A DNA stretch of 64,000 nucleotides from Truepera radiovictrix DSM 17093. GTDB lineage: Bacteria; Deinococcota; Deinococci; Deinococcales; Trueperaceae. Shown piece by piece: positions 42,451-46,326 of this stretch; the stretch's first letter is position 1; each line of letters opens with the position of its first letter. A program made the position numbers and the translations under genes. The notes under the pieces were generated by a model. It ran no database searches. It saw nothing but the letters and a program-made list of their open reading frames with translations, and had not been told where the DNA came from. The stretch is from positions 400,001-464,000 of the forward strand of contig NC_014221.1 in the NCBI RefSeq assembly GCF_000092425.1, given 5' to 3'.

Positions 42451-43935
42451 ATGACCCAAGAACCCGCACCGCAGACCCCGGCGCAGCCTAGCGCAGCGGC
42501 GCTGCAAGACCACCTCGTCGTCACCCACCACACCCTCACCGTAGGGGGCGCGGAGCTGCGCTACACCGCCACCGCGGGCACCCTCGTGCTGCGCGAGGAG
42601 CGCCACAAAGACGGCGTCTGGGAGGGTGACAAGCCCAAAGCGACGGTTTTTGTCGTCGCCTACAGCAAAGACGGGGCGGACCCGGGGAGGCGCCCCGTCA
42701 CCTTCGCCTTTAACGGCGGCCCCGGTTCGTCGTCGGTGTGGCTGCACCTGGGCGCTTTGGGCCCCAAACGGGTCCTCATGGACGAACTCGGCCACCCCAC
42801 GCCGCCGCCCTACCGCTTGATCGACAACGCCCACACGCTCCTAGACGTCACCGACCTCGTCTTTATCGACCCCGTGTCGACCGGTTACAGCCGCGCCGCC
42901 CCCGGCGAAAAGCCCGCCGACTTTCACGCCTTCAACGAGGACATCGCTTCGGTCGGCGACGTGATCCGGCTCTACACCTCGCGCTATGGGCGCTGGTCGA
43001 GCCCGAAGTTCTTGATCGGCGAGTCCTACGGGACGACGCGCGCGGCGGGGCTCGCGGGCTACTTGCAGGAGCGGCATGGGATGTACCTAAGCGGCCTCAT
43101 GCTGGTCTCGTCCGTGCTGGACTTTCAGACCCTGCTCTTTGAGGCGGGCAACGACCTGCCCTATAGCCTCTTCCTGCCCGCCTACACGGCCACCGCTTGG
43201 TACCACTCTCGGCTGCCCGAAGCGCTGCAGCGCCGGCCGCTTCGCGAGGTGCTCCGCGAGGTCGAGGCGTTCGCGCTCGGGGAGTACGCGCTCGCCCTGT
43301 TGCAAGGCGCCAACCTGGAGGCCGAGCGGCGCGCCGAGGTCGCCCGCACCCTGGCGCGCTACACGGGGCTCAGCGAGGCGTACGTGGAGCGCTGCGACCT
43401 GCGGCTCGAGATCGGCCGCTTTACCAAAGAGCTGCTGCGGGACGCGGGGCGCACGGTCGGGCGGCTCGACAGCCGCTTTACGGGTTTCGACCGCGACGCG
43501 GCGGGGGAGCGCCCCCTGTACGACCCCTCCTACGCCACCATCCAAGGCCCCTACACGGCGACCTTGAACGACTACGTCCGCCGCGAGCTCGGCTTCGCGA
43601 GCGACCTGCCCTACGAGATCTTGACGAACCTCTACGAGACCTGGAGCTACAAGGCGTTCGAGAACCGCTTCGTGAGCGTGTCCGACACCCTGCGCAAAGC
43701 CATGTCGATCAACCCTCACCTCAAGGTACACGTCGCGAGCGGGGTGTTCGACCTGGCGACGCCCTACTTCGCCACCGCGTACACGCTCAGCCACCTGGGG
43801 CTCGCGCCTGAGCTGCGCGGCAACCTCAGCACCAGCACCTACGAGGCGGGGCACATGATGTACGTGCACGAGGCGTCGCTAGCGAAGCTGAAGGGAGAGT
43901 TGGGGAGGTTTATTCTTACTTCTCAGGCAACTTGA
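42451..43935 (+). CDS. Serine carboxypeptidase-like S10 family peptidase
   Basis: The 494-residue protein belongs to peptidase family S10. The oxyanion-hole block FAFNGGPGSSSVWLHLGALGP is near residue 88, the nucleophile Ser is in IGESYGTTRAAG near residue 190, the Asp is in SGVFDLATPY near residue 432, and the His is in AGHMMYVHE near residue 468. No signal peptide is visible, so it seems cytoplasmic, unlike most S10 enzymes. TAGCAT (42440-42445) lies 5 nt before the ATG. The last dozen codons become AT-rich, where the foreign-looking segment starts. Confidence 0.9.
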   Translation: MTQEPAPQTPAQPSAAALQDHLVVTHHTLTVGGAELRYTATAGTLVLREERHKDGVWEGDKPKATVFVVAYSKDGADPGRRPVTFAFNGGPGSSSVWLHLGALGPKRVLMDELGHPTPPPYRLIDNAHTLLDVTDLVFIDPVSTGYSRAAPGEKPADFHAFNEDIASVGDVIRLYTSRYGRWSSPKFLIGESYGTTRAAGLAGYLQERHGMYLSGLMLVSSVLDFQTLLFEAGNDLPYSLFLPAYTATAWYHSRLPEALQRRPLREVLREVEAFALGEYALALLQGANLEAERRAEVARTLARYTGLSEAYVERCDLRLEIGRFTKELLRDAGRTVGRLDSRFTGFDRDAAGERPLYDPSYATIQGPYTATLNDYVRRELGFASDLPYEILTNLYETWSYKAFENRFVSVSDTLRKAMSINPHLKVHVASGVFDLATPYFATAYTLSHLGLAPELRGNLSTSTYEAGHMMYVHEASLAKLKGELGRFILTSQAT

Positions 43936-43983: not shown

Positions 43984-44682
43984 ATGGACTTGAGAAATCT
44001 AATTGTAAATAAGGTGGATAACGCTAACAGTCTGCTTTCCCAACACCCAATAGCAAAGGGGCTTGTTGAGGGTGGCGTCTCACTCATACCCTTTTTGGGA
44101 ACAGCCATAACAGGTACCCTCAATACCCGTGCGGCTCTCTTATTTGAGAGGAACACAACACTGCTTACTAACGAACTAAAAACCCAGGTTCACAGACTGA
44201 GTGAGAATAAGATAGATAGAGAGTTCTTAGACTCCGATGAATTTACATTTCTTATCCTGGATGTTCTTGCTAAGAATGCCTATACATATGAGGAAGTCAA
44301 AACTCAACTTTTTGCTCAAATTCTTATCAACTCGACATTGAAGGGAACCTCCTCTACCCCTTATAAAGAGGGATTTGTTCGGATAGTTAGTGATCTAAGT
44401 GCGCAGCATATTCAAATTTTTACTGCTGTATTTCGGAAAGCTCAAACGTTCACAGGTCAGCACCAAATTAACAACGAAGACTATGTAAAAGCTCAGGAAA
44501 TTGCTGGAGAAGCTGAACTGACTCAAAGCCGTACTATAGCGTATTGCGAAGAACTAATACGCTATGGATTGTTGTCCGATTGGTCAGTTGGGCGCTGGGA
44601 GTATCAGCGAGGTTTGTACTCAGTAACTGATTACGGCGCTGAATTCGCTTCGTTTCTAATGTCACATGTCAGTGAGAGCTAG
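43984..44682 (+). CDS. AT-rich orphan protein with glycine-rich helix and winged-helix-like end
   Basis: I do not recognise the family. The 232-residue product has a short N-terminal glycine-rich hydrophobic stretch, GGVSLIPFLGTAITGTL (residues 30-46), that could enter a membrane. A helical middle of about 130 residues follows. The C-terminus, with YCEELIRYGLLSD and YSVTDYGAEFASFL, reads like a winged-helix wing. This layout (small hydrophobic element, helical middle, winged end) recalls uncharacterised proteins of the DUF4393 type. Codon use and base composition are strikingly AT-rich compared with everything around it, so the gene was probably acquired. It overlaps the next gene by 17 bp. 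Confidence 0.7.
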   Translation: MDLRNLIVNKVDNANSLLSQHPIAKGLVEGGVSLIPFLGTAITGTLNTRAALLFERNTTLLTNELKTQVHRLSENKIDREFLDSDEFTFLILDVLAKNAYTYEEVKTQLFAQILINSTLKGTSSTPYKEGFVRIVSDLSAQHIQIFTAVFRKAQTFTGQHQINNEDYVKAQEIAGEAELTQSRTIAYCEELIRYGLLSDWSVGRWEYQRGLYSVTDYGAEFASFLMSHVSES

Positions 44683-45598
44683 GCAGTTTGTGCGCGGCAC
44701 CCACGCCTCCCTCCCCGACCCCCGCAACGAGAGCGTTTTCGTCTACATCAACGGCGCATTCTTCCCCCGTCACGAGGCCAAGATCTCCGTGTTCGACAGC
44801 GGCTTTTTGGTCGGCGACGGCGTGTGGGAGGGGGTGCGGCTTCATGAGGGTGCCTTCGCCTTTTTGGACCTGCACCTAGAGCGGCTGTTCGAGGGGGCGA
44901 GGGCGATCGGCCTAGACATCGGCAAGACGAAGGCCGAGCTCGAGGCGGCGCTGTACGACACCGTGCGCAAAAACGCCATGCACACGGACGTGCACGTGCG
45001 CCTGATGGTCACCCGCGGGACCAAAAAGACCCCCTCGCAGGACCCACGCCTCGTCGAGGGGGGGCCCAATATCGTCATCATCGCCGAGCACAAGCGCGCC
45101 GACCCGGAGGTGACGGCGGCGGGCGTGCGGCTGCTGACCAGCACCGTGCGCCGCCCGCCGCCCGACACCCTGGACCAGAAGCTAAACTGCCACTCCAAAC
45201 TGCACGAGGTCGTGGCGCTCGTGCAGGCGCTGCACGCGGGCGCGGACGAGGCGCTGATGCTCGACCCCGAGGGGTTCGTGGCGACCTGCAACGCGACAAA
45301 CTTCTTTATCGTCCGGCGCGGCGAGGTGTGGACCTCGACGGGGCAGTATTGCCTAAACGGCATCACGCGGCGCATCGTCCTGGCGCTCTGCCGCGAGGCG
45401 GGGATCGTGGCCCTCGAAAAGCCCTTTTCGCTCACGGAGGTCTACAGCGCCGATGAAGCGTTCGTCACGGGGACCTTCGGCGGGTTGACGCCCGTGATCG
45501 AGGTCGACGGGCGGCGGATCGGCGACGCTCAGCGCGGCCCGGTCACAGCGCGGCTCACCGCCCTCTACCAGGCGGCGGTGGCGGAGGCGGCGCGGTGA
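44666..45598 (+). CDS. Class IV PLP aminotransferase (BCAT/D-amino acid type)
   Basis: The 310-residue protein is a fold-type IV PLP enzyme related to branched-chain aminotransferase, D-amino-acid aminotransferase and aminodeoxychorismate lyase. Family blocks are VYINGAFFPRHEAKISVFDSG near residue 26, GDGVWEGVR, and a central LDQKLNCHSKLHEV with the likely Schiff-base Lys. The ANATNF-type stretch appears as VATCNATNFFIV, and GTFGGLTPV lies near the end. The first ATG is at 44666; GTG codons at 44672 and 44690 are also possible and would fit an N-terminus that begins after the AT-rich insert. Its stop overlaps the next gene (GTGA), a sulfotransferase-like protein. Confidence 0.88.
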   Translation: MSVRARQFVRGTHASLPDPRNESVFVYINGAFFPRHEAKISVFDSGFLVGDGVWEGVRLHEGAFAFLDLHLERLFEGARAIGLDIGKTKAELEAALYDTVRKNAMHTDVHVRLMVTRGTKKTPSQDPRLVEGGPNIVIIAEHKRADPEVTAAGVRLLTSTVRRPPPDTLDQKLNCHSKLHEVVALVQALHAGADEALMLDPEGFVATCNATNFFIVRRGEVWTSTGQYCLNGITRRIVLALCREAGIVALEKPFSLTEVYSADEAFVTGTFGGLTPVIEVDGRRIGDAQRGPVTARLTALYQAAVAEAAR

Positions 45599-46326
45599 CG
45601 CGGCCCCTACGGCTGTCCGTCTGGTCGGGGCCGCGCAACGTCTCGACCGCCCTGATGTACAGCTTTCGGGAGCGCGCCGACACGACGGTGGTCGACGAAC
45701 CGCTCTACGGGCACTACCTACGGGTGTCGGGTGCGCCCCACCCCGGCCGCGACGAGGTGCTCGCCAGCATGGACACGGACGGCGAGCGGGTGGTGCGGGA
45801 GGTGCTGCTCGGCGACTACGCTGCGCCCGTAGTGATGTTTAAAAACATGGCGCACCACCTGGTGGGTTTGGAGCGCGCGTTTTTGGGGGAGCTCACCAAC
45901 GTCCTACTAACCCGCGACCCGTACGATATGCTCCCGTCGCTCGCGCAGAGGCTCCCGGAGCCCACGCTGCGCGACACCGGCCTCACCGAGCAGGTCGCGC
46001 TGCTGGAGTTCGTGCTGGAGAGGGGCCAAGAGCCCGTGGTGATCGACGCCAAGGCGCTCCTCCAGGACCCCGAGGGGGTGCTGCGGGCGGTGTGCCGCCG
46101 CTTGGGACTTCCCTTCGACCCGGCGATGCTCGCGTGGCCCGCGGGCCCCAAACCCGAGGACGGGGTGTGGGCCAGGCACTGGTACGCCAACGTGCACCGC
46201 TCGAGCACCTTCGCCCCCTACACCCCCAAGGCCGACCCCCTGCCGGCGCACCTGACGCCGCTTCTCGAGGTGTGCGCGCCGCTCTACGAGCGTTTGGCCG
46301 CCTACGCGGTCTCCCCCGAAAGGTAG
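45595..46326 (+). CDS. Sulfotransferase-like P-loop protein, partner of the aminotransferase
   Basis: This 243-residue protein has the start of a sulfotransferase fold. A phosphosulfate-binding-like loop is in VWSGPRNVSTALMYSF (residues 8-23), followed by VVDEPLYGHYLRVSG. A second strand carries LLTRDPYDMLPSL near residue 103, and the tail has WARHWYANVHRSS. In plants a protein annotated as aminotransferase-like carries a very similar domain joined to a class IV aminotransferase. Here the two are separate but translation-coupled genes. Substrate and reaction are unknown; PAPS use is not demonstrated. Confidence 0.72.
   Translation: MTRPLRLSVWSGPRNVSTALMYSFRERADTTVVDEPLYGHYLRVSGAPHPGRDEVLASMDTDGERVVREVLLGDYAAPVVMFKNMAHHLVGLERAFLGELTNVLLTRDPYDMLPSLAQRLPEPTLRDTGLTEQVALLEFVLERGQEPVVIDAKALLQDPEGVLRAVCRRLGLPFDPAMLAWPAGPKPEDGVWARHWYANVHRSSTFAPYTPKADPLPAHLTPLLEVCAPLYERLAAYAVSPER

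Follow-up and report, generated by a model that had tools for sequence, protein, structure and literature searches.

The window analyzed here is a stretch of 64,000 nucleotides from the genome of Truepera radiovictrix DSM 17093, which is a single contig of 3,260,398 bases. Two genes on its forward strand are the subject of this report. The first, referred to as AT, encodes a protein of class IV aminotransferase fold that has lost the catalytic lysine. Its open reading frame spans 44666-45598 (310 amino acids from ATG 44666), and a profile search matched the product to PF01063 (Aminotran_4) with an E-value of 4.5e-40 and 138 bits against a cut-off of 28.5. The second, referred to as ST5, is located at 45595..46326, opens with GTG and encodes a Sulfotransfer_5 protein of 243 amino acids (PF19798, E 1.3e-44, 152.7 bits, cut-off 23.2). 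Both are confirmed as real genes. The overlap of the two by GTGA, pointed out in the first-pass annotation, was found at 45595..45598, where the stop codon of AT meets the start codon of ST5 in an arrangement consistent with translational coupling.

The true start of AT probably lies downstream of its annotated one. Relatives of AT begin with M(A/V)RGTH, and ATG 44666 falls within the 3' end of an unrelated gene of 42% GC in a window of 69% GC; for these two reasons we favor GTG 44690 (..VRGTHASLPDPRN) as the start, giving coordinates of 44690..45598. Residue numbers used below are counted from ATG 44666. The AT-rich gene just upstream of the pair (43984-44682, forward strand) encodes a 232-amino acid protein with a weak, below cut-off match to Abi_alpha (PF14337, E 1.8e-5), and was probably acquired horizontally. 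Further upstream, 42451-43935 on the same strand encodes a serine carboxypeptidase S10 family protein (PF00450, E 1.3e-9), a family that is unusual among bacteria.

The AlphaFold2 model of ST5 has a pLDDT of 96.6. Its Foldseek matches include tyrosylprotein sulfotransferases as well as the CurM and Ols sulfotransferase domains, and the top PDB matches are sulfotransferases. Alignment of 39 ST5 proteins revealed a 5'-phosphosulfate-binding-like P-loop, S11-GPRNVS-T18 (SGPRNVST, 45625..45648, forward strand), in which S11, P13, R14, N15, S17 and T18 are invariant. It is followed by a 3'-phosphate-binding-like motif, R107-x-P-x(5)-S115 (RDPYDMLPS, 45913..45939, forward strand), in which R107 and P109 are invariant and S115 is at least 90% conserved; the R-x7-S spacing equals that of the 3'-PSB in known sulfotransferases. 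The two motifs that had been singled out in the first reading of the sequence, WSGPRNVSTALMYSF and VVDEPLY, are present and conserved in the same alignment. Judged from the phosphate-binding-like motifs and from the predicted fold, ST5 is a probable PAPS-dependent sulfotransferase. An APS kinase was identified in the window genome (E 1.2e-74). Within Trueperaceae this enzyme occurs in all six ST5-bearing genomes, in 8 of the other 33 and in none of the four genomes with AT only (Fisher p 0.0009), so PAPS can be made in the ST5-bearing members of the family. No relatives of ST5 were found in viral contigs.

Scanning a single genome for each species identified 80 ST5 loci. They are spread over about a dozen phyla, including Deinococcota, Actinomycetota, Acidobacteriota, Chloroflexota, Planctomycetota, Verrucomicrobiota, Pseudomonadota, Bacteroidota, Balneolota, Rhodothermota, Ignavibacteriota and Latescibacterota (phylum names were taken from record titles and trees). 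An AT gene adjoins ST5 on the same strand in 74 of these 80 loci, and each of the remaining six genomes has a gene for a lysine-less AT at another position. Gene order was counted over the 74 adjacent loci and six Trueperaceae loci, window included: ST5 comes first (ST-AT) in 55 and AT comes first (AT-ST) in 25. The genes overlap or lie at most 30 nt apart in 49 of the 55 ST-AT loci and in all 25 AT-ST loci. Co-occurrence is also evident at the level of whole genomes. Among 274 Gammaproteobacteria, AT was detected in all ten genomes with a close ST5 versus 1 of 264 others (Fisher p 2e-17, a value that ignores the kinship of the genomes). In the phylum of the window ST5 is found in 6 of 111 genomes, each of which also has AT, and AT without ST5 is found in four more. 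These observations strongly support coupling of AT and ST5 across phyla, and their pairing is far above chance. A conserved joint function had been proposed in the first-pass annotation, which named a gene-neighborhood survey and co-occurrence in other genomes as checks; the adjacency count, the two gene orders, the overlapping or touching genes and the spread over about a dozen phyla all support the proposal.

No ST5-AT fusion was seen among the bacterial loci examined. Clustering of flanking open reading frames as candidates for a conserved third partner gene returned lineage-level synteny only, in Woeseiaceae and their kin, and beyond close relatives there was no third conserved neighbor that could name the pathway. 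In loci of Woeseiaceae and related Gammaproteobacteria (e.g. L083, 7645-9354) the ST-AT pair is followed by a glutamate-cysteine ligase gene on the opposite strand. This arrangement is found in most of the 31 loci having that gene, and reads as lineage synteny with no clear functional link. More distant ST5 proteins, at about 30% identity (from Streptomyces, from a Dolichospermum plasmid and L147-L151), have no adjacent AT. The relative on the Dolichospermum plasmid (L096, 7989-9917, 30% identity) is located beside the APS kinase gene cysC and has no aminotransferase-like partner.

In an alignment with IlvE and lysine-type paralogues, Asn174 of AT (codon 45185..45187, forward strand) occupies the column of the PLP-binding lysine, Lys160 of E. 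coli IlvE with Met1 counted (Lys159 in mature numbering). Thr207 (codon 45284..45286, forward strand) falls in the column of IlvE Glu194, the glutamate in contact with the pyridine nitrogen of PLP. AT had first been described as a class IV aminotransferase. The Aminotran_4 domain and the fold stand, while the catalytic lysine and the pyridine glutamate do not, and replacement of the lysine makes a reading as transaminase doubtful. Among 118 aligned class IV sequences, 60 combine His with Glu at these two columns, 37 Asn with Thr and 4 Asn with Ser, the remainder being lysine-type controls drawn from the same genomes; every Asn-type protein has T or S in the Glu194 column, and every His-type protein has E. 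The catalytic lysine is absent from all coupled ATs, which have Asn or His instead. The type tracks gene order, Asn with AT-ST and His with ST-AT, with a single exception (L025), and alignment of the His-type motif requires no gaps (DSKIHHNNLINNILAK vs NPRIKSLNYLNNILAK). A quick class IV tree, computed with the active-site columns removed and containing some long outgroup branches, recovers the Asn type and the His type each as monophyletic (99) and unites the two in a clade of their own (SH-aLRT 100), outside all lysine types. As read from this alignment and tree, loss of the lysine is universal among coupled ATs and has a single origin.

An apparent loss of lysine in two control BCATs (L100 and L123) turned out to be misalignment by one or two columns. 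Two lysines near the site were considered as substitutes and rejected: relatives have Arg, Met or Ala in place of the one two positions before 174, and the transporter-linked group has Arg in place of the one four positions after it. The window genome also encodes a separate lysine-bearing IlvE-like class IV enzyme, and lysine-type class IV enzymes also turned up in the majority of ST5 genomes inspected. A divergent His-type member (L157, 6059-7045, reverse strand; LDQHIHSCNQL) is not linked to the ST5 gene in the same genome, and suggests that the lysine-less clade is more diverse than sampled here.

By the measure of residue conservation, the lysine-less site is not decaying. The cup for the cofactor phosphate (R73, G232-x-T234-R235 and T270) is at least 95% conserved in both the Asn and the His types, and so are K120, H110, W54, S45, D170, N209 and D18-x-R20-N21, residues not seen in lysine types. 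Lys120 (codon 45023..45025, forward strand; TRGxK) is invariant in the 41 Asn-type and 60 His-type sequences, and its column is mostly Gly or Ala in lysine-type enzymes; this region corresponds to the IlvE active-site loop that reaches the active site of the neighboring subunit. Residues that line the substrate pocket of IlvE are replaced in AT, Tyr32 by Val, Phe37 by Trp and Tyr96 by His, and the Met108 loop is replaced too. AT also scores under every NCBIfam cut-off for named class IV enzymes (BCAT, D-AAT, ADC lyase), and its Foldseek comparison with BCATs gives a TM of about 0.8.

Some Asn-type ATs have no ST5. Those on plasmids have amino-acid ABC transporter genes or other genes for uptake as neighbors, and in three Trueperaceae genomes such an AT lies close to M24 peptidases and an oligopeptide-type transporter. 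Their location beside genes for amino-acid and peptide uptake suggests that the substrate of the AT-fold protein is amino-acid-derived, and their occurrence without ST5 implies that its role is not always in need of sulfonation. The plasmid genes (L090-L095) come from Ruegeria, Paracoccus, Pseudomonas savastanoi, Pantoea, Agrobacterium and Dinoroseobacter; most of them neighbor genes for amino-acid ABC or TRAP transporters, and their annotation is simply "aminotransferase class IV". A quick ST5 tree hinted at partner switching between the Asn and His types, which we do not claim since an AU test does not reject a single clade of the Asn-partnered ST5s (p 0.64).

With the lysine lost in every pair, AT is probably no aminotransferase, and would instead make up one half of a two-protein chemistry with ST5. 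Our preferred reading, to which we assign a probability of roughly 0.35, is that AT and ST5 form a conserved two-protein unit that links PAPS-dependent sulfonation and lysine-free B6 chemistry on one small metabolite. ST5 would sulfonate a hydroxyl of a small amino- or keto-bearing metabolite. With PMP or PLP held non-covalently, in the manner of the ColD/E1 sugar dehydratases, AT would form an aldimine with the substrate and drive an elimination with sulfate as the leaving group; alternatively, the two proteins could act in the reverse order. AT would work without an internal aldimine because the Schiff-base lysine is swapped for Asn or His. This model rests on the coupling, the lysine loss, the conserved phosphate cup, the PAPS motifs and the APS kinase in ST5 genomes, and it is from these that we infer B6 binding, the substrate and the elimination step. 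A sulfonated amino compound is a possible substrate of the pair. The CurM and Ols sulfotransferases turn sulfate into a leaving group, and their position as the nearest solved sequences to ST5 supports that part of the model. The case for lysine-free B6 chemistry is weaker for the Asn type found in the window, since Asn, in contrast to His, cannot serve as an acid/base catalyst and the glutamate that protonates the pyridine ring is lost as well. Two further observations count against the model: Asn-type ATs occur without ST5, and no third gene conserved beside the pair points to a pathway. Taken further, the pair could represent a new class of B6 chemistry, in which lysine-less fold-type IV enzymes and a partner sulfotransferase carry out sulfonation-elimination or sulfonation-deamination of a common metabolite in many phyla and in a plant fusion described below; we offer this wider generalization tentatively and regard it as rather unlikely.

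In the chief rival reading, AT may instead be a non-catalytic partner, i.e. a substrate-presenting or regulatory pseudoenzyme, with the chemistry performed by ST5 alone. Loss of the catalytic lysine in all coupled members and of the glutamate in the Asn type would be expected of such a protein, and overlapping genes fit a complex. SPT1/LCB1, which is without the PLP lysine yet required for SPT activity, provides a precedent for a lysine-less partner (PMC6148460). That the phosphate cup, together with a number of pocket residues, is conserved at 95% or more in both types does not fit this explanation, and neither do the Asn-type proteins found without ST5 in four Trueperaceae genomes and on plasmids, which cannot be merely ST5 subunits. 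We consider a purely supporting role for AT to be possible, if somewhat doubtful.

Another explanation is that AT is a working transaminase with a relocated Schiff-base lysine. The candidate would be Lys120, given its invariance in 101 of 101 lysine-less members, the Gly or Ala mostly found there in lysine types and the reach of the corresponding IlvE loop into the active site of the neighboring subunit. We find this improbable. The title of PDB entry 9j32, mutant N174K of a Variovorax relative of AT, indicates that its depositors also took position 174 for the site of the missing lysine, and their placing a lysine there suggests that the natural protein is without a working one; the other pocket residues differ too, as listed above for IlvE Tyr32, Phe37 and Tyr96. 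The proposal of the first-pass annotation, an ordinary class IV aminotransferase using O-sulfated or O-phosphorylated amino compounds, is in agreement with the Aminotran_4 match and the BCAT-like fold, but with Asn174 and Thr207 in place of the catalytic lysine and pyridine glutamate, scores below all NCBIfam cut-offs for BCAT, D-AAT and ADC lyase, and a separate lysine-bearing IlvE-like gene in the genome, it has become very unlikely. That AT and ST5 are neighbors by chance or through operon hitch-hiking, as Asn-type ATs without ST5 and distant ST5s without AT might suggest, is scarcely credible in view of both gene orders, intergenic distances close to zero, the spread over about a dozen phyla and co-occurrence even where the genes are unlinked.

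The pair brings together a known sulfotransferase family and a lysine-less aminotransferase-like family that is structurally known and, in the literature searched, functionally undescribed, and its active site is an unusual one. Annotation labels AT as branched-chain aminotransferase or "aminotransferase class IV" even though the reaction-defining residue is gone. A lysine loss that is shared by all coupled ATs, has one origin on the tree and is tied to a sulfotransferase turns the label "aminotransferase-like" into a concrete question of enzymology, namely what role a lysine-free class IV fold plays toward a sulfonated metabolite.

The closest solved structures to AT are 7z79 and 9j32, the wild type and the N174K mutant of an "aminotransferase-like protein" of Variovorax paradoxus (56-57% identity over about 290 columns, TM 0.87-0.90). 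The wild type 7z79 shares the Asn of AT at position 174, and the Variovorax active site (DLRLNSHSRLN) resembles that of transporter-linked Asn members, not of ST5-coupled ones. Our literature search found no function paper on 7z79 or 9j32 and nothing functional on PF19798. AT shares its fold (type IV) and phosphate cup (R73, GITR 232-235, T270) with BCATs and D-amino-acid aminotransferases, yet differs from both in the loss of the catalytic lysine, the loss of the pyridine glutamate (Asn type) and the replaced substrate-pocket residues.

Precedents for the proposed model exist. In ColD, E1 and SpnQ, which are relatives of aminotransferases, the lysine is changed to His and the chemistry is a PMP-dependent dehydration (PMC8987622). 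The same change is seen in the sister His clade, whereas the AT of the window has Asn. ColD, E1 and SpnQ belong to fold type I and act on nucleotide-sugar substrates while AT belongs to fold type IV, and the comparison extends only to how the enzymes may work. In GenP/GenB3, the other precedent, a transferase activates a hydroxyl, and elimination by a PLP enzyme follows (PMC7941887). On the sulfotransferase side, the nearest solved sequences to ST5 are those of the CurM and olefin-synthase (Ols) sulfotransferase domains (4gbm and 4gox; profile E 3.7e-6 and 1.4e-5). CurM and Ols sulfotransferases are PKS-embedded, act on acyl carrier substrates and have no aminotransferase partner. An "aminotransferase + sulfotransferase" combination from paulomycin was rejected as a parallel, its sulfotransferase being a MoeZ-like sulfur transferase and not an ST5.

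Plant "branched-chain aminotransferase-like" proteins carry a sulfotransferase-like and a class IV domain fused in the order ST-AT, which is the order of the His-type bacterial operons. A literature search on the Arabidopsis loci of this fusion returned nothing. For the plant fusion we predict His at the lysine column, within a motif like DSKIHHNN; if the plant class IV domain does carry His there, the fusion would belong to the His clade.
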